DNA of 64,000 bases from Acidobacteriota bacterium (GTDB lineage: Bacteria > Acidobacteriota > Terriglobia > Acidiferrales > UBA7541): assembly GCA_003224145.1 (NCBI GenBank), contig QHYN01000199.1, forward strand, positions 17,654-81,653, read 5' to 3'. Shown piece after piece: positions 49,786 to 57,951 of the stretch (positions are counted from its first letter, which is position 1; each line of letters begins with the position of its first letter). The notes beneath the pieces were generated by a model, which was not told the DNA's origin, did not search any database, and was given only the letters and a program-made list of their open reading frames with translations. A program made the position numbers and the translations under genes.

Positions 49786-50724
49786 ATGAGAGTCCGGCAA
49801 ATTCACATTCTTCTCCTTGTGCTTCTATTCACAGGCTCGCTCGTATCCTGCCAGCAACCGTGCCATCAGCCGGAAGAACGCTATGTTTTCGTGGCCTCGC
49901 ACACCAGCGTACCGTTCTGGAGGGAGGCCGAAGCTGGCTTGACGGATGCCGCCAAGCAAATGGGTGTCAAGGCAGAACTCATTGGTCCCGCCAACTTTTC
50001 TCCTGACGAAGAACTGAAAGCGTTTCAGCAAGCCGCTGCCCAAAAACCGTCTGGAATTTTGCTCTCGGCGTCGAATTCGGAAGTTTTCAGAGCTTCGATT
50101 AATGCCGCGATCCAACAGGGCATACCGGTGATCTGTGCGGATGCAGACGTTCCCGACTCTCACCGCTTTCTGTTCGTCGGTACGGATAATTTCCGTGCCG
50201 GACAGGAAAGCGGCCGCCGCATGGGGGAACTCCTCGGCGGTAAAGGCAACATCGTCGTCATCACCATCCCAGGCCAGTTCAATCTTGACGAGCGTTTGCG
50301 TGGGGTCACTGAAGCGCTGAAAAAATTTCCGCGCTTGAAAATCACCAAGATTATCGATGACAAGGGTGATCCACGTGACGCCTATGAGGCGATTTCAGCC
50401 CTCTTGCAAGGCAAAGACAAACCTGACGGAATCATTGGCCTAGAAGCCTCAGGGGGAGCCGGCGCCGCCGATGCGCTGCACCGTTTGGACCTTACCGGCA
50501 AGATTCCCATCGTGGCGTTCGACAAGGACCCGGAGACGTTGGACTGGATCCAGCGTGGCGCCATCACCGCGACGGTTGTGCAGAAGCCCTACGTGATGAG
50601 CTACTATGGGCTCAAATTTCTGGACGATCTTCACCACAATGCGAGAGGCTCTCGCTGCTCACCCGAGGGCGATGTGAAGGTCATGATGAGGCACGGTGGG
50701 GACCGCAGCGGGCTCTGGAACTAA
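49786..50724 (+). CDS. Sugar-binding-type lipoprotein, copy 1, with aberrant C terminus
   Basis: The 312-residue product has a lipoprotein signal (LLLVLLFTGSLVSC, Cys22) and a Peripla_BP_4/RbsB-like fold (VASHTSVPFWREAEAGL, LFVGTDNFRAGQESGRRMG, GLEASGGAGAADAL). AAAGGAGG precedes the ATG. It is a paralogue of the gene at 51046. From 50453 to 50642 the DNA is identical to that copy, then the reading changes to RGSRCSPEGDVKVMMRHGG and ends early, losing the last strand of the binding fold. It may therefore be non-functional. No transporter ATPase or permease adjoins it. Confidence 0.85.
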   Translation: MRVRQIHILLLVLLFTGSLVSCQQPCHQPEERYVFVASHTSVPFWREAEAGLTDAAKQMGVKAELIGPANFSPDEELKAFQQAAAQKPSGILLSASNSEVFRASINAAIQQGIPVICADADVPDSHRFLFVGTDNFRAGQESGRRMGELLGGKGNIVVITIPGQFNLDERLRGVTEALKKFPRLKITKIIDDKGDPRDAYEAISALLQGKDKPDGIIGLEASGGAGAADALHRLDLTGKIPIVAFDKDPETLDWIQRGAITATVVQKPYVMSYYGLKFLDDLHHNARGSRCSPEGDVKVMMRHGGDRSGLWN

Positions 50725-51045
50725 GCCAATCCCATGGAAGCGCGGTCGCACTGTAGAGTCCCGTCCGCGAATCTTGAATGAGAAAGTCAACTTCGGCCGC
50801 CAAGCTTCGAGGTGCCGGGGAAGCGGTCAATGTGCAATTTCTATTCCACATACCTTTCCTGCCGCACACGCGGCTGACACTTGAACAAACCAGTCAGGGT
50901 AAGACCAGTCCTTGTTCGGGAGCCGGTTCGTAGCTCGATTGTGCCGCGACTATGATAGGCTAAGCGCTCGAAAAGAGAGCCAATTGTATCTGGAATTGCT
51001 CTTCGATTTTTTCCTCGCTTGAAAACTGCTGAAAGGAGACCTGCT
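50725..51045. other. Intergenic region between the two lipoprotein genes
   Basis: No gene is supported in these 321 bp. A TATGAT box lies at 50951-50956 and a terminator-like hairpin at 50976-51010 just before the ribosome binding site of copy 2 (AAAGGAG). The rest has no clear structure. Confidence 0.6.
50976..51010 (+). terminator. Intrinsic terminator or attenuator ahead of lipoprotein copy 2
   Basis: AGAGC-C-AATT (50976-50985) and AATTGCTCT (50994-51002) form a 9-bp stem with one bulged C and an 8-base loop, followed by TCGATTTTTT. It ends about 35 bases before ATG 51046. It either ends transcripts from copy 1 or sits in the leader of copy 2 as an attenuator. A competing hairpin (GGCT...CTC-gaaaa-GAG-AGCC, 50958-50981) would use its 5' arm. 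Confidence 0.6.
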
Positions 51046-52038
51046 ATGAAACTTCCTGCGATCGAAACTCTTCTTCCCGTGATTCTCCTGACAGGTGTGC
51101 TGGTGTCATGCCAGCAGCCTTACCACGAGAAGGATGAGCACTATGTTTTCGTGGCGGTTAGCACCACCATACCGTACTGGCAGGAGGCCGAAGCCGGTTT
51201 GACCGATTCAGCAAAGCAGTTGGGCGTCAAAGCGGACTTCACGGGCCCGGCCGCTTTCTCTCCGAACGAGGAACTGACTGCGTTTCAGCAAGCCGTTTCT
51301 CAAAAACCCTCCGGCATCCTGCTCGCCGCAGCAACTCCAGAAATTTTCAGGGAACCCATCAACGCCGCCGTCCAACAAGGTATTCCTGTGATTTGCGTGG
51401 ATGCTGATTCACCAGAGTCCAACCGCATTCTCTTTGTCGGCACGGACAACTTCCGTGCTGGCCAGGAAAGTGGCAGGCGCATGGGGGAATTGCTGAAAGG
51501 CAAGGGGAATATCGTCGTGGTGACCGTCCTCGGTCAATTCAATCTCGGCGAGCGTCTTCGCGGCGTTGAGGAAGCGCTGAGGAAATTTCCGGGAATCAAA
51601 ATTACCAAGACCGTCGATGACAAGGGTGATCCGCGGGATGCCTACGACGCCATATCCGCCCTCGTGCAAGGCAAAGACAAACCTGACGGAATCATTGGCT
51701 TGGAAGCCTCAGGGGGAGCCGGCGCCGCCGATGCGCTGCACCGTTTGGACCTTACCGGCAAGATTCCCATCGTGGCGTTCGACAAGGACCCGGAGACGTT
51801 GGACTGGATCCAGCGTGGCGCCATCACCGCGACGGTTGTGCAGAAGCCCTACGTGATGAGCTACTATGGGCTCAAATTTCTGGACGATCTTCACCACAAT
51901 GCCGTTCACGAGTTTAAAGATTGGAGAACCTCACCCACTTCTCCCATGCCGGCATGGGTAGACACGGGGACCGCGATCGTCGATAAGAATAATCTTACGC
52001 CGTTCCGGGAAGCGCTTGCGGCTCGCCCGAAGCCGTGA
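51046..52038 (+). CDS. Sugar-binding-type lipoprotein, copy 2 (RbsB-like)
   Basis: The 330-residue product has a type II signal peptide (LLPVILLTGVLVSC) and a full-length periplasmic binding fold: FVAVSTTIPYWQEAEAGLT, GILLAAATPEIFREPINAA, VDADSPESNRILFVGTDNF, and the complete end PAWVDTGTAIVDKNNLTPF. Such proteins deliver sugars or autoinducers to ABC importers or act as sensor partners. AAAGGAG precedes ATG 51046, so the track start at 51019 is too early. No ABC transporter genes are beside it. Confidence 0.9.
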   Translation: MKLPAIETLLPVILLTGVLVSCQQPYHEKDEHYVFVAVSTTIPYWQEAEAGLTDSAKQLGVKADFTGPAAFSPNEELTAFQQAVSQKPSGILLAAATPEIFREPINAAVQQGIPVICVDADSPESNRILFVGTDNFRAGQESGRRMGELLKGKGNIVVVTVLGQFNLGERLRGVEEALRKFPGIKITKTVDDKGDPRDAYDAISALVQGKDKPDGIIGLEASGGAGAADALHRLDLTGKIPIVAFDKDPETLDWIQRGAITATVVQKPYVMSYYGLKFLDDLHHNAVHEFKDWRTSPTSPMPAWVDTGTAIVDKNNLTPFREALAARPKP

Positions 52039-52280: not shown

Positions 52281-52625
52281 TCAGAGAGCAGCAGGCGGAT
52301 GGAGCCGGGCGTGTTCGGCGCGGCCCGGATGCGGGAATCTCGGGCCTGCGTTCGAATTGCGGGGCGCTGTGTTCAAGTGAGGCTTGGCGCAGCTTCTCGA
52401 CCACGAGCGGGAAGCATGTTTTTTCGAGTCACACATTTTGACGCAGCCACCACGCAGGTTCGATTCCGCGCAATGGCAGTAGCATCCTCCCGCCGGAACT
52501 TGACGCAGCAGCGCCGGAGTGTCGCCAAAGACCGAGAACGAGCAGGCCAGGATAGTCATCGCAATGCCCGCCACCCGCAGAAGCGAAGGATGGCTCGGAA
52601 GCATGGCTTTGAGCAAGGGAAGCAT
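52281..52625 (-). CDS. Small secreted Cys-rich protein, unknown function
   Basis: The 114-residue product has a hydrophobic signal segment (LLRVAGIAMTILACSFSVFG), then a compact region with seven Cys/His-type positions: CYCHCAESNLRGGCVKMCD and, further on, SCAKPH, ending in PRFPHPGRAEHARL. The Cys pattern is far from random, and similar short secreted proteins occur, as I recall, in acidobacterial genomes. A metal-binding or disulfide-stabilised role is possible. The overlapping plus-strand ORF 52260..52760 has no such features. Confidence 0.55.
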   Translation of the reverse strand: MLPLLKAMLPSHPSLLRVAGIAMTILACSFSVFGDTPALLRQVPAGGCYCHCAESNLRGGCVKMCDSKKHASRSWSRSCAKPHLNTAPRNSNAGPRFPHPGRAEHARLHPPAAL

Positions 52626-52886
52626 GAAGCCATTCTGAGGAAGATGCGGAAGAAAACCGATAGCTCGGGCAGATTGGTAGTTCTGGAACCAGCCGGATCT
52701 GTCAGGGTCATGGAAAAGGCCAAGCTCCCGATTCTGGAGCGACGCGGAGTTCCGAACTGAATCAGGAGTGCAGTTTTGGAGTTTCCCGACGGCAACAAGC
52801 CAGAAGTAACTCCCACATAATAAAACACTTAATAGAGTTATCTGCGGGCCTCGAGTTGGCCGAAATCTTGCACTGACGCGATCCGT
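52626..52886. other. Intergenic region upstream of the RNA candidate
   Basis: No gene is supported. An AT-rich patch around 52815-52840 (CATAATAAAACACTTAATAG) might contain the promoter of the RNA candidate that follows, but no clear -35/-10 pair is seen. Confidence 0.4.
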
Positions 52887-53047
52887 GGGCGCGTTTCAGA
52901 TGACGAGATGCGAAGAGAGACAAGCGAGGGGGAAGGGGCTTGCTTGTCACTTTTTGCGGACCGTACCCACCTGCCTCTGAGAGGGAAGCTAGGATGGATG
53001 ACCCCACGCGCTGACGTGAAAACGACGCCAGCAATTGAAACGCGCCC
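52887..53047 (+). ncRNA. Candidate structured ncRNA, four helices, closed by a 12-bp stem
   Basis: GGGCGCGTTTCA (52887-52898) pairs perfectly with TGAAACGCGCCC (53036-53047). Inside are three hairpins: GACAAGCGAG/CTTGCTTGTC (52919-52948), a CCACCT...AGG-A-TGG stem with an inner CCTC-TGA-GAGG (52967-52997), and GCTG-A-CGT-GAAA-ACG...CAGC with a GNRA loop (53010-53032). A strong intrinsic terminator follows four bases later. No plus-strand gene lies downstream, so a free-standing RNA is more likely than a riboswitch. I see no 6S, SRP, tmRNA or RNase P signature. Confidence 0.6.
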
Positions 53048-53050
53048 TCC

Positions 53051-53087
53051 GGGGCCCCCGATCCCAAGCGGGGGCCCCATTTTTTTG
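53051..53087 (+). terminator. Strong intrinsic terminator, plus strand
   Basis: GGGGCCCCC (53051-53059) and GGGGGCCCC (53070-53078) form a perfect 9-bp GC stem with a 10-base loop, followed by ATTTTTTT. The T-run is on the plus strand only, so it serves a plus-strand transcript, most likely the RNA candidate just upstream. It lies 13 bases beyond the end of the convergent hydrolase gene. Confidence 0.85.
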
Positions 53088-53099
53088 CCCATTCTTTTT

Positions 53100-55106
53100 T
53101 CACCGTGCGGAAACCACCGGCAATTCAATAAAGCTTGCCTCACTCGGCGCGTGATAGACACGCTGCACGGCCTTACGGTAATCCCCTGGCTTGGCCCAGA
53201 AAATACTGGGGACGAACGTCTGCGGATTACGGTCATACAAAGGAAACCAACTCGACTGGATTTGCACCATGATGCGGTGGCCCGGCAAGAACACGTGGTT
53301 TGCGGTGGGTAGTGCAAAACGATAGAGCAGCGGCTTGTCCGGTGCGATCGGTTTGGGAATTTCCATGCTCTCCCGATAGCGGCCGCGGAAAATATCAGCC
53401 GAAACCATCAACTGGTAGCCACCCATTTCCTTCTGGCCAGCCACTTCATCCGGATAAACGTCAATCAATTTCACCACCCAATCGGAGTCCGTGCCGCTGG
53501 TGGAAGCCACAAGGTTCGCAACTGGCTGCCCGCTGATTTTCACCGGCGCGCTCAATTCGTCGGAAACGAATACCAAGACGTCGGGGCGGCCGGAAGCTTC
53601 GCGCTGATCGTCCACCAGCCATTGCGACCAGGTCAGGCCGTTGCTGTAGCCAATGGGTTGACTGGGGCGCGCGCGGAAAGGCACAGGCTTCGCCGGGTCG
53701 GAGACGTATTCTTCGTACGGAGGCGGCGCACCAGACCCACCCTCGCCGGGACCTAGCCCCGCGGTCAGAATCAGTTTCCGCCGCGGGCCAAGATAAAGTG
53801 GCGTAGCTTTCGGCGCGCAGCCGCTGGCGCATCCTGATGGCCATGCATTCAGCCGCCGCCACGTGTTTGTCCCCGTTTCGAACGCAGAAACCGCCGCGAC
53901 GTCCGCCTTTGGTGCTCCATCCTTTAGATATTGCGCGAGAAATGGCGCAAGAATTTCCTTGCGAAAATACAACCCGGTGTCGCTGCTGAATTTCAACGCA
54001 CCGAGCGAGCTGGCATCTTCGATTTCCTGCCCGTGATGCCAAGGCCCCATCACTAAGAAGACTTTGTCATTATTCGTGTCTTTTGGCTTGAGGGCCTTGT
54101 ACACCGCAATGGCGCCGTAGATGTCTTCCTGATCCCAGAGGCTGTGCACCAGCATCGTCGGAACTTTCAGCGGTTGCGTGGCAAGAATTTTGTCCATCGC
54201 TTGCTCCTGCCAGAAAGCGTCGTAGCTCGGATGCTCCAGAATCTTGCGCCAGAATCCGATCTGTTCCAGGCCGTGTTGGCGGCCGAGTTCGCCCGCCGAG
54301 CCCGCCTGCATGAATTCGTCATAGTCGTCAAAGTGGCTGCTCCACCATTTGGCTTTGTTATCGCGCGTTGCTTCTTGTTCGTAAATGTAGGGCAGATTCT
54401 GCTGGCGGAAAGCGCCGTTATGGAACCAGTCGTCACCCATCCAGCCGTCCACCATGGGATTCATGGGCACGGACACTTTCAGCGCGGGATGCGGATTGAC
54501 CAGCGCCATCAATGGTGTAAAGCCGTCATAAGAAATGCCGAGAATGCCGACTCTCCCGTTGCATTCCGGAACGTTCTTCACCAGCCAGTCGATGGTGTCG
54601 TACGTGTCGGTAGAATGGTCGACGGTCGTGGGATTGAGCGGGCCACGCAGGGGCCGGTTCATCACGTAATCGCCTTGGGAGCCGTACTTGCCGCGCACAT
54701 CCTGGACCACGCGGATGTAGCCGCCTTCGACGATGACATCCGTCGCGTTGTCATAACCGTAGAGCGCGGGGCCCAGGTGCGGACTGGGAATGTGGCTCGT
54801 CAACTCTGAGGCGTCGTAGGGTGTGCGGGTCAGGAGGATCGGCGCGTTTTTTGTGCTTTTAGGAACGAGGATTACGGTTTGCAGCTTTACGCCGTCGCGC
54901 ATGGGAATCATCACGTCACGCCGCGTGTAATCGAAGGTGGCGGTGGCGGCTTCGAAGTGGGCCGGCGTTTCACTCGACAGTGTGGCCTGGCCGGACTGCG
55001 GCGAAGGAGTCTGAGCGTGTGAACTCTGGGTGTGGAAAGGCGCTCCAAACAGCGCTGCAAGCAGGATTACAAGGGTGCGGCGAATGCAGCGAATGATTGG
55101 TTTCAT
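53100..55106 (-). CDS. Secreted CocE/NonD-family hydrolase (S15 type)
   Basis: The 668-residue product has a signal peptide (TLVILLAALFGAPFHTQSSHAQ) and an alpha/beta-hydrolase of the X-Pro dipeptidyl-peptidase/CocE group. VMIPMRDGVKLQTVILVPK opens the domain. VQDVRGKYGSQG is the oxyanion tyrosine-type region, and the nucleophile is Ser in GILGISYDGF near residue 200. Asp (SLWDQEDIYG) and His (MGPWHHGQE) complete the triad. A C-terminal jelly-roll domain follows. Members cleave acylated amino acid esters, beta-lactam side chains or Xaa-Pro peptides. AAGGAG precedes the ATG. Confidence 0.93.
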   Translation of the reverse strand: MKPIIRCIRRTLVILLAALFGAPFHTQSSHAQTPSPQSGQATLSSETPAHFEAATATFDYTRRDVMIPMRDGVKLQTVILVPKSTKNAPILLTRTPYDASELTSHIPSPHLGPALYGYDNATDVIVEGGYIRVVQDVRGKYGSQGDYVMNRPLRGPLNPTTVDHSTDTYDTIDWLVKNVPECNGRVGILGISYDGFTPLMALVNPHPALKVSVPMNPMVDGWMGDDWFHNGAFRQQNLPYIYEQEATRDNKAKWWSSHFDDYDEFMQAGSAGELGRQHGLEQIGFWRKILEHPSYDAFWQEQAMDKILATQPLKVPTMLVHSLWDQEDIYGAIAVYKALKPKDTNNDKVFLVMGPWHHGQEIEDASSLGALKFSSDTGLYFRKEILAPFLAQYLKDGAPKADVAAVSAFETGTNTWRRLNAWPSGCASGCAPKATPLYLGPRRKLILTAGLGPGEGGSGAPPPYEEYVSDPAKPVPFRARPSQPIGYSNGLTWSQWLVDDQREASGRPDVLVFVSDELSAPVKISGQPVANLVASTSGTDSDWVVKLIDVYPDEVAGQKEMGGYQLMVSADIFRGRYRESMEIPKPIAPDKPLLYRFALPTANHVFLPGHRIMVQIQSSWFPLYDRNPQTFVPSIFWAKPGDYRKAVQRVYHAPSEASFIELPVVSAR

Positions 55107-55218: not shown

Positions 55219-55440
55219 TCAGTTGACTTTGCGCGTCACGACAATCTTGGCTCGACCCAGCGCGTGGGCTACCTCCGTTTCGCGCAGGCGCGACGCGTCG
55301 TATTCAAACGACAACTGTTTCTTCGAATCGTCCAGACGAAACCGCCGCAGGCCGTAAATGTTCGCGAACTCGCCGAGATGGCGCAGTTGCTCTTCGCTCA
55401 GGGGAGATTGCAGTTCATAAGTAACTTCCACGAGTGTCAT
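55219..55440 (-). CDS. Small ferredoxin-like-fold protein, unknown, divergent from the copper ATPase
   Basis: The 73-residue product (MTLVEVTYELQSPLSEEQL) shows alternating strands and helices compatible with the HMA-like fold but lacks the CxxC metal site of copper chaperones. TATAAT lies exactly six bases before the ATG with no Shine-Dalgarno, so the mRNA may be leaderless. The cop-box dyad sits between this promoter and that of the ATPase, suggesting shared control. I do not recognise a family. Confidence 0.65.
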   Translation of the reverse strand: MTLVEVTYELQSPLSEEQLRHLGEFANIYGLRRFRLDDSKKQLSFEYDASRLRETEVAHALGRAKIVVTRKVN

Positions 55441-55512: not shown

Positions 55513-57951
55513 ATGTCCAATCTGCCCACGAATCCGAAGCTGCCGAACGCAAGCCTGCCGATTTTATCGGGCTCGCCAAAGGTCAAAGACCCCGTCTGTG
55601 GAATGTCGGTGGACCCCGCGAAAGCAGGAGGCAAAGTGGAGCACGATGGCAAGGCCTATTATTTCTGCTCCAAGCGTTGCGCGGAGCGCTTCGCGCAGGG
55701 TCCGGAGAAGTTTCTTGCCGCTCCCGGGACCGCGGGAATGGAGGATGCTCACGCTCCTGCCAAGCACACAGAGATGCATCACATCCCAGCTGCTGCCGCG
55801 CCTCCCGCTGCGAGCGCAAAGGGCGCCCGTTACACCTGCCCAATGCATCCGCAGATTGTCCAGATTGGCCCGGGCACTTGCCCCATCTGCGGCATGGCGC
55901 TCGAGCCGATGGATGTCTTCGCCGAAGTGGAGGCCGATCCCGAATACGACTCGATGCGGAGGCGGTTCTGGGTCAGCGTGGCATTGTCGCTGCCCGTGCT
56001 GGTCCTCTCCATGTTTGGTGAAATGCTCGGCCTGCGTCTTGCTCCATCCGTCCGAAATGCAATCGAATTTTTTCTCGCCACTCCCGTTGTCCTGTGGGGT
56101 GGCTGGCCATTTTTCGAGCGTTTTTGGGCCTCGCTCGTCAATCGCAGCCCGAATATGTTTACGCTGATCGGGCTCGGCACTGGCGCGGCCTATCTCGACA
56201 GCGTTTTGGCTACTTTCTTCCCGCAAATCTTTCCGGCTTCCTTCCGAAGCATGGATGGGGCCGCTCCCGTTTATTTTGAAGCGGCGGCAGTCATCACCAC
56301 GCTGGTTCTTCTCGGCCAGGTTCTTGAGCTGCGGGCTCGGCAGCAAACTAGCGGTGCGATTCGCTCCCTCCTGAACCTCGCGCCGCAGCAGGCGCATCTC
56401 CTTTCGGAAGATGGTTCGGAAAAAGATGTTCAGCTGGACCAAATTCAGCGCGGCGACCATCTGCGCGTTCGTCCCGGCAAGCGCGTGCCCGTCGATGGGG
56501 TCATCCAGGAAGGCGCGAGCGCCATTGATGAATCGATGGTGACCGGCGAACCGATGCCCGTCGAAAAGAAAGCCGGCGACAGCGTCACCGGCGGAACGCT
56601 GAATGCCAGCGGCAGCTTCATCATGGAAGCACAGCGCGTGGGCAGCGAGACCATGCTGGCACAAATTGTGAAACTTGTCAGCGAAGCTCAGCGCAGCCGC
56701 GCGCCAATGCAGCGCCTTGCGGATCGCGTCGCCGCGTACTTCGTCCCCGCCGTAGTCTTCGCGGCGATTCTCGCCTTTTTGGGTTGGATGTTCCTCGGCC
56801 CGGAGCCGCGCTTTGCCCATGCACTCGTTGCCGCTGTATCCGTCTTGATCATTGCTTGTCCGTGTGCGCTCGGCCTGGCAACGCCGATGTCCATCATGGT
56901 GGCCGTTGGCCGCGGGGCGCACGCCGGCGTCCTCGTTCGAAACGCCGAAGCTTTGGAGACTCTGGCCAAAGTGGACACCCTCGTGGTCGACAAGACCGGC
57001 ACGCTCACATTCGGCAAGCCGCTCGTGATGGACGTGAGTGTTTTTGAAGGCGGCGGTTTTTCGAAAGATGACCTGTTAAGGCTCACCGCGAGCGTGGAAC
57101 GCCCGAGTGAACATCCGCTCGCACGTGCCATTGTCATGGCAGCCGAAGAAAAGGGAGTGCCGGTCGCAGAGGTTAGCGGTTTTCAAGCGACCGCTGGAGG
57201 TGGTGTCGAAGGGCAAGTCCTCGGTGATCGTGTTCTCGTCGGCAGCCCAAAGTTTTTGCAAGAACGTGGAGTCGTTTCCGCAACGGTTTCAGGCCAACAG
57301 AATCTGTACGGGGGCGGGGTGGTAGACGGGGCCGCTTCGATAAGCCTCGTGGGCGTGGCGGTCAATGAGAAACTAGCAGGTGTGCTCGTTTTGGCGGACA
57401 TGATGAAGGAGTCGACCCCGGAGGCCGTCGATGCGCTGCGTAAGGAAGGATTGCGAATCGTGATGCTTACAGGCGACCGGAAGGAATCCGCCTCGATGAT
57501 CGCTGCGCAATTGAAAATAACCGAGGTAGAGTCCGAAGTATCTCCGGGGCAAAAGGGCGATATCGTCAAGAAGCTGCGAGCGGAGGGGCGCGTAGTGGCG
57601 ATGGCGGGGGACGGAATCAATGACGCTCCCGCCCTTGCGGCGGCTGCCGTGGGCATAGCCATGGGCACAGGGACCGACGTAGCCATGGAAAACGCTGGCA
57701 TCACCCTTCTCAAAGGCGACTTGCGCGGAATTGTCCGCGCACGCAAGCTGAGCCGCGCCACGATTCGCAACATCAAGCAGAATCTCGCCTGGGCTTTTCT
57801 TTACAACGTAATTGGGGTTCCCATCGCCGCTGGCGTCTTCTATCCTCTTTTTGGTTGGCTGCTCAGTCCGATGCTGGCCAGCGCCGCCATGAGCTTCAGC
57901 TCGGCCTCCGTCATCGCCAACGCCTTGCGCCTCCGCAAAGCGTCCTTGTAA
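55513..57951 (+). CDS. Copper-translocating P1B-type ATPase with YHS and heavy-metal-binding N terminus
   Basis: The 812-residue pump exports Cu(I) at the cost of ATP. In order: a YHS domain (about 25-75, [11 protein letters not shown]), a heavy-metal-binding segment ([20 protein letters not shown] near 107), eight transmembrane helices, TGEP (344-347), the metal site CPC (449-451), the phosphorylated Asp493 in DKTGTLT, and GDGIND (699-704). YN in helix 7 and MSFSS in helix 8 fit Cu(I) rather than zinc. The usual HMA domains with CxxC are replaced by YHS plus the CPMHP module. It is probably controlled by the cop-box upstream. Confidence 0.95.

Follow-up and report, generated by a model that had tools for sequence, protein, structure and literature searches.

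The window analysed here, a 64,000-nt stretch of DNA from an Acidobacteriota bacterium (contig QHYN01000199.1, positions 17,654 to 81,653), harbors what we interpret, with a probability of about 0.6, as a stand-alone gene for a sigma-54-controlled, trans-acting regulatory small RNA that belongs to a new RNA family. The gene spans ~204 nt of the plus strand (window 52883-53086), its 5' end placed from the -12 element of the predicted promoter and its 3' end from a T run, and it is present in one copy in the window genome. Judged from sequence comparison, it would be a new family filed under an already known kind, the small RNAs of sigma-54/two-component systems, and it has the features of that class: a promoter at the right distance, its own terminator, and no conserved reading frame. 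The hosts are mostly uncultured soil bacteria, known chiefly from metagenomes. A 2022 survey counted four distinct annotated small RNAs in the phylum Acidobacteria (PMC9029176); the present gene would add one that is spread across a whole family and has a covariation-backed structure, a control element that can be named, and a regulator that may activate it. Metatranscriptomes offer a direct test of its transcription, regulon, and target by means of the covariance model and the enhancer/promoter signature, and the nearly invariant core, which is reused in short paralogues, gives a clear handle on mechanism.

Structure and conservation of the small RNA

Comparison of homologues yielded an architecture in which a closing stem, P1, surrounds three hairpins (P2/P3, P4, and P5) and is followed by an intrinsic terminator:

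52887-52898, plus strand: 5' arm of the P1 closing stem (GGGCGCGTTTCA; 12 bp, perfect)
53036-53047, plus strand: 3' arm of the P1 closing stem (TGAAACGCGCCC), pairing with 52887-52898
52919..52948, plus strand: P3 hairpin, with a G-rich, nearly invariant loop GGGGGAAGGGGC and a covarying stem
52967..53004, plus strand: P4 core hairpin with its GATGACCCCA tail, nearly invariant in the 47-homologue alignment and present in core-only paralogues
53010..53032, plus strand: P5 hairpin, 7 of 7 pairs changed on both sides, loop not conserved outside the genus
53051..53086, plus strand: intrinsic terminator, with a 10-bp stem (53051-53060/53069-53078), a conserved loop AUCCCAAG, an A, and then T7 (53080-53086)

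The region is GC-rich, and the minimum free energy of 52883-53086 is -97.3 kcal/mol, against -74.0 ± 4.3 kcal/mol for dinucleotide shuffles (z = -5.49; none of 200 shuffles equalled it). A preliminary description of this DNA, made from the letters alone, had proposed an independent small RNA, some 165-200 nt in length, containing a perfect 12-bp closing stem, internal hairpins, one of them with a GNRA loop, and a terminator with a 9-bp stem and T7. The closing stem was recovered at 52887-52898/53036-53047 and the internal hairpins are present in the fold. The GNRA loop was not borne out, as the minimum-energy structure gives P5 a 7-nt loop and the loops at this place differ widely in other genera. 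The T7 run of the terminator stands, and its stem measures 10 bp instead of 9. An independent RNA of the proposed size matches the comparative evidence, which points to a conserved sigma-54 promoter and a covarying terminator. The description had also seen no plus-strand gene after the RNA, and there is indeed none close by; the next gene is that of a minus-strand S15/PepX-type hydrolase (53100-55106).

Covariation was assessed in a structure-blind MAFFT alignment (47 homologues) and in a model-fitted alignment of 72 distinct sequences, which leans towards the structure. In the former, 89.3% of the cells pair and 40 of the 62 pairs have changed on both sides; there are 333 both-side cells, compared with 103.8 ± 10.6 after shuffling and no more than 94 in slid controls. 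The corresponding count in the model-fitted alignment is 659 (194.5 ± 13.6 shuffled, at most 154 slid). Compensation in the closing stem, which had been named earlier as a check, was seen in all 11 modelled pairs of P1, with 96.3% of the cells paired (model-fitted alignment), and in 8 of the 11 when the alignment is structure-blind. Likewise, 18 of the 22 pairs of P2/P3 covary in the MAFFT alignment, and 9 of the 10 terminator pairs are changed on both sides in the model-fitted one (98.2% paired). Because this covariation extends across 47-72 distinct homologues, the structure is beyond chance, and the compensating mutations show that it is under selection. P4, a core hairpin of ~40 nt, is almost invariant in both arms, whereas all other helices covary. 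Conservation outside the stems among the 47 homologues is found in the P3 loop GGAAGGGG, in GACCCCA after P4, and in the terminator loop. A pseudoknot between the P3 loop and CCCC was considered and rejected; it shows no covariation in the alignment, and the short paralogues lack P3.

The absence of a known RNA signature, noted in the preliminary description, agrees with Rfam 15, which at gathering thresholds matched nothing at the small RNA in a scan of the whole window (a single tRNA was found elsewhere) and at a permissive threshold (E ≤ 10) gave matches at chance level only in 52700-53300. The covariance model built here scores the window copy, itself a training member, at 212 bits (E 3.8e-54). 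Our literature searches, in which coverage of subscription journals was thin, returned no report of the RNA. Acido-1 (RF01686) and Acido-Lenti-1 (RF01687) are likewise structured noncoding RNA candidates from Acidobacteria, obtained by comparative genomics (PMC2864571), but their models have no match here, at gathering or at E ≤ 10. The size of ~200 nt and the long closing stem are shared with 6S RNA, from which the present RNA differs in the lack of an Rfam 6S match, in having three hairpins branch from the closing loop where 6S forms a rod with a central bubble, and in its predicted sigma-54 promoter. A riboswitch or leader was also rejected, given the RNA's own terminator and a flanking downstream gene that is usually convergent, not co-oriented.

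Predicted sigma-54 promoter, enhancer-like dyads, and candidate activator

The upstream region contains three candidate control elements:

52856..52872, plus strand: sigma-54 promoter TTGGCCGAAATCTTGCA, with the -24 GG at 52858-59 and the -12 GC at 52870-71
52749..52763, plus strand: proximal enhancer-like dyad GTTCCGAACTGAATC (family consensus TTCCGAATCGGAA)
52725..52739, plus strand: distal, second enhancer-like dyad CTCCCGATTCTGGAG, from the dyad scan

The promoter consensus, TTGGC-N6-C[T/G]TGCA, is situated ~11 nt upstream of the modelled RNA, and the element at 52856-52872 therefore leads us to expect the RNA start near 52883. The strict pattern TGG-N9-TGC occupies the expected position in 51 of 66 copies, compared to a shuffle mean of 0.36 (maximum 3). 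The decayed copy of one relative (G018, L053) has lost the sigma-54 element too. The proximal dyad occupies a near-fixed position ~130 bp upstream of the RNA, with a Gibbs motif score of 641 versus 322-345 for shuffled upstream regions. A second dyad scoring at least 8 is found 13-60 bp above the first at 44% of 39 loci, versus 1.8% of shuffles, the distance often being 19-24 bp. Another upstream block, TAA...TTA, was set aside because its enrichment is slight (19 versus 10 of 61). The divergent gene was checked for a sigma-54 promoter of its own, and none was found. Of 21 genomes, 19 encode RpoN and 17 an Hfq-like domain.

The same enhancer/promoter layout is found upstream of a response regulator gene with receiver, Sigma54_activat, and HTH_8 domains in three genomes (G051, G119, and G045):

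L243:1147-2541, plus strand: NtrC-type response regulator gene with the dyad and sigma-54 layout
L244:1114-2508, plus strand: NtrC-type response regulator gene with the dyad and sigma-54 layout
L245:1830-3380, minus strand: NtrC-type response regulator gene with the dyad and sigma-54 layout

Its own upstream layout suggests that this regulator is probably self-regulated, and we infer that it is a candidate activator of the small RNA, binding the dyads of the latter. The composite pattern also has matches at L246, with a TonB receptor, and at L253, with a sugar-nucleotide operon, and many further matches in coding DNA are likely due to chance; since so many coding sites are matched, the specificity of the pattern is modest. 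The control of the GlmY/GlmZ and Qrr small RNAs by GlrR and LuxO, respectively, has been tabulated, and the sigma-54 promoter of GlmY cited (PMC7602753). Those systems resemble the present one in that the RNA gene stands alone, has a -24/-12 promoter, and ends in an intrinsic terminator, and their activator sites have a putative counterpart in the upstream dyads; they are unrelated to it in sequence and structure; the RNA described here is confined to Acidobacteriota, and its core is far more invariant.

Distribution among relatives and core-only paralogues

Of 101 relatives searched at the DNA level, 53 gave a match; these fall into 13 genera, all in the window's own family, and more distant relatives gave none. 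The covariance model detected the small RNA in 66 of the 71 family genomes of at least 80% completeness, covering all 13 sampled genera. Named records with the core include Candidatus Acidiferrales, Candidatus Acidiferrum typicum, and 'gp2' Acidobacteria; these homologues suggest that the window derives from subdivision-2 Acidobacteriota. A class-wide sample added one diverged copy, that of G061 in a sister family (E 2.2e-8), which keeps the core and a promoter-like CTGGC...GTTGCA with a spacing that fails the strict sigma-54 test, and in a phylum-wide sample of 297 genomes the covariance model had no match beyond the window's own. Matches of the core model outside the family at the phylum level (E 0.001-0.01) look like chance, several of them being plainly coding DNA, and the DNA-pattern matches in other phyla (e.g., Mesorhizobium, Euryarchaeota, and Clostridia) are attributed to chance because the full model fails to match them. 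Within the family, no match was obtained in three large genomes (G016, G017, and G030) and the copy in G018 is decayed; the small RNA is therefore not essential everywhere, and some of the absences may be assembly gaps. Two records labelled Bacillota and Betaproteobacteria (L058 and L114) carry the small RNA core, have Acidobacteriota counterparts (G055 and G006), and are probably mislabelled assemblies.

Four genomes (G013, G028, G033, and G034) contain a shorter element, detected first by BLAST, with the same core inside a different closing stem:

L052:3244-3300, minus strand: short core-only paralogue
L054:2955-3014, plus strand: short core-only paralogue
L055:3433-3489, minus strand: short core-only paralogue
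L057:3218-3276, plus strand: short core-only paralogue

These elements have no shared gene context, and two of them are preceded, by eye, by TTGACA...TATAAT-like, sigma-70-like promoters. Their core-model scores are not independent, because these copies are in the training set of the model. The recurrence of the core on its own suggests that it is the working part of the RNA. A further, diverged paralogue on contig 25 of G037 (L169:819-964, minus strand) keeps the core and the terminator loop UCCCAAGC.

Mode of action and genomic neighborhood

We propose that the RNA would be turned on by a two-component activator of the NtrC type, probably the self-regulated protein whose gene has the same layout, and that the trigger may be an envelope or metal-related stress. 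The RNA would then work in trans. Its most likely mode is base-pairing by way of invariant segments that are unpaired or can open, for which the candidates are the P3 loop, the P4 core with GACCCCA, and the terminator loop, while P1 and the terminator would protect it. Against pairing, the near-invariance of both P4 arms exceeds that of a usual pairing seed. It is possible, if somewhat unlikely, that the same gene produces an RNA that pairs with no mRNA and instead binds a protein via P4, sequestering or activating it as CsrB, 6S, and CrcZ do. That P4 is fixed in both arms among covarying helices is in keeping with this, as are its GGA motifs and its occurrence alone, within another closing stem, in the shorter paralogues, which suggests a portable recognition module. 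However, no candidate partner was found, and CsrA, the best known GGA-binding partner, is encoded in none of the 71 family genomes. A CsrA sponge is thus excluded, the PF02599 search having matched the positive-control genomes; GGA motifs in a structured RNA are a feature shared with CsrB/RsmZ, unlike which the present RNA lacks repeated GGA hairpin loops and occurs in a family without CsrA. A more speculative proposal, which we regard as doubtful, is that the P4 core acts as a transferable module, carried by the long, sigma-54-driven RNA and the short, apparently sigma-70-driven paralogues, that binds a protein or ligand by a mechanism new among small RNAs; if true, it would be the family's own global post-transcriptional switch, replacing the missing CsrA system.

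The genes near the small RNA bear on the process that it may serve:

52281..52625, minus strand: predicted small Cys-rich protein with a CYCHC motif, divergent (NCBIfam CYCXC matched weakly, at E 0.005, short of the cut-off)
55219..55440, minus strand: copper-chaperone-fold protein of 73 aa without CxxC, 2.1 kb from the RNA here and adjoining it in most relatives
55513..57951, plus strand: YHS/HMBD copper-type P1B ATPase (TIGR01511 Cu ATPase, 589 bits, cut-off 397)

The CYCHC protein, which weakly resembles the CYCXC (seleno)protein family, is a conserved divergent neighbor within the genus; a homologue was matched at 24 of 56 loci, at most of these in the same place, and at 14 loci the upstream divergent position is taken by a thioredoxin-fold protein with a Cys-rich tail. 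The 73-aa protein, conserved in 12 of the 13 family genera, has no match in Pfam or NCBIfam; its AlphaFold model (pLDDT 85) best matches copper chaperones and HMA domains in the PDB (TM 0.72-0.77, best E 1.3e-3). A copper-type ATPase is inside the flank examined at 30 of 56 loci, and a CsoR-type repressor is nearby at some loci. In the window, the hydrolase gene stands between the small RNA and the copper genes, and in three genomes (G016, G017, and G115) the 73-aa protein is present and the small RNA unmatched. From this neighborhood, copper or thiol homeostasis is our best guess at the process served; as the association with copper genes is not obligatory, we treat it as a lead only. Complementarity of the small RNA to the start regions of three neighboring genes gave no signal. 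Further upstream, two tandem plus-strand genes (49786-50724 and 51019-52038) encode related periplasmic sugar-binding-type proteins whose second halves have long identical stretches in common, which points to a duplication or to gene conversion.

We consider it improbable that the RNA is a cis-acting element regulating the convergent downstream gene, that of the 73-aa HMA-fold protein or the hydrolase, whether by overlapping it in antisense or by interfering with its transcription. At 36 of 56 loci the 73-aa gene converges on the small RNA from no more than 700 nt downstream, and it sometimes ends less than 50 nt away, but the RNA is kept where that gene is absent (genus g12), on another contig (g4), or replaced by an unrelated convergent gene, as in the window; moreover, the terminator stops the RNA ahead of the gene, and antisense overlap does not need the selection seen on RNA structure. 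That the locus encodes a small peptide is very improbable: AGAGGGAAGCUAGGAUGGAUGACC inside P4 resembles a ribosome-binding site and start codon, with a nearly invariant Shine-Dalgarno-like AGAGGG ~9 bases ahead of the AUG, but of the frame only MDDP is conserved, after which it diverges and runs for anything from 6 to 171 codons; the other frame has neither a start nor a stop in common, and the core is invariant at third codon positions too. Finally, a fortuitous fold of this GC-rich DNA or a degenerate repeat can practically be dismissed, being refuted by covariation far above the shuffled and slid controls and disfavored by the single genomic copy and the conserved promoter.
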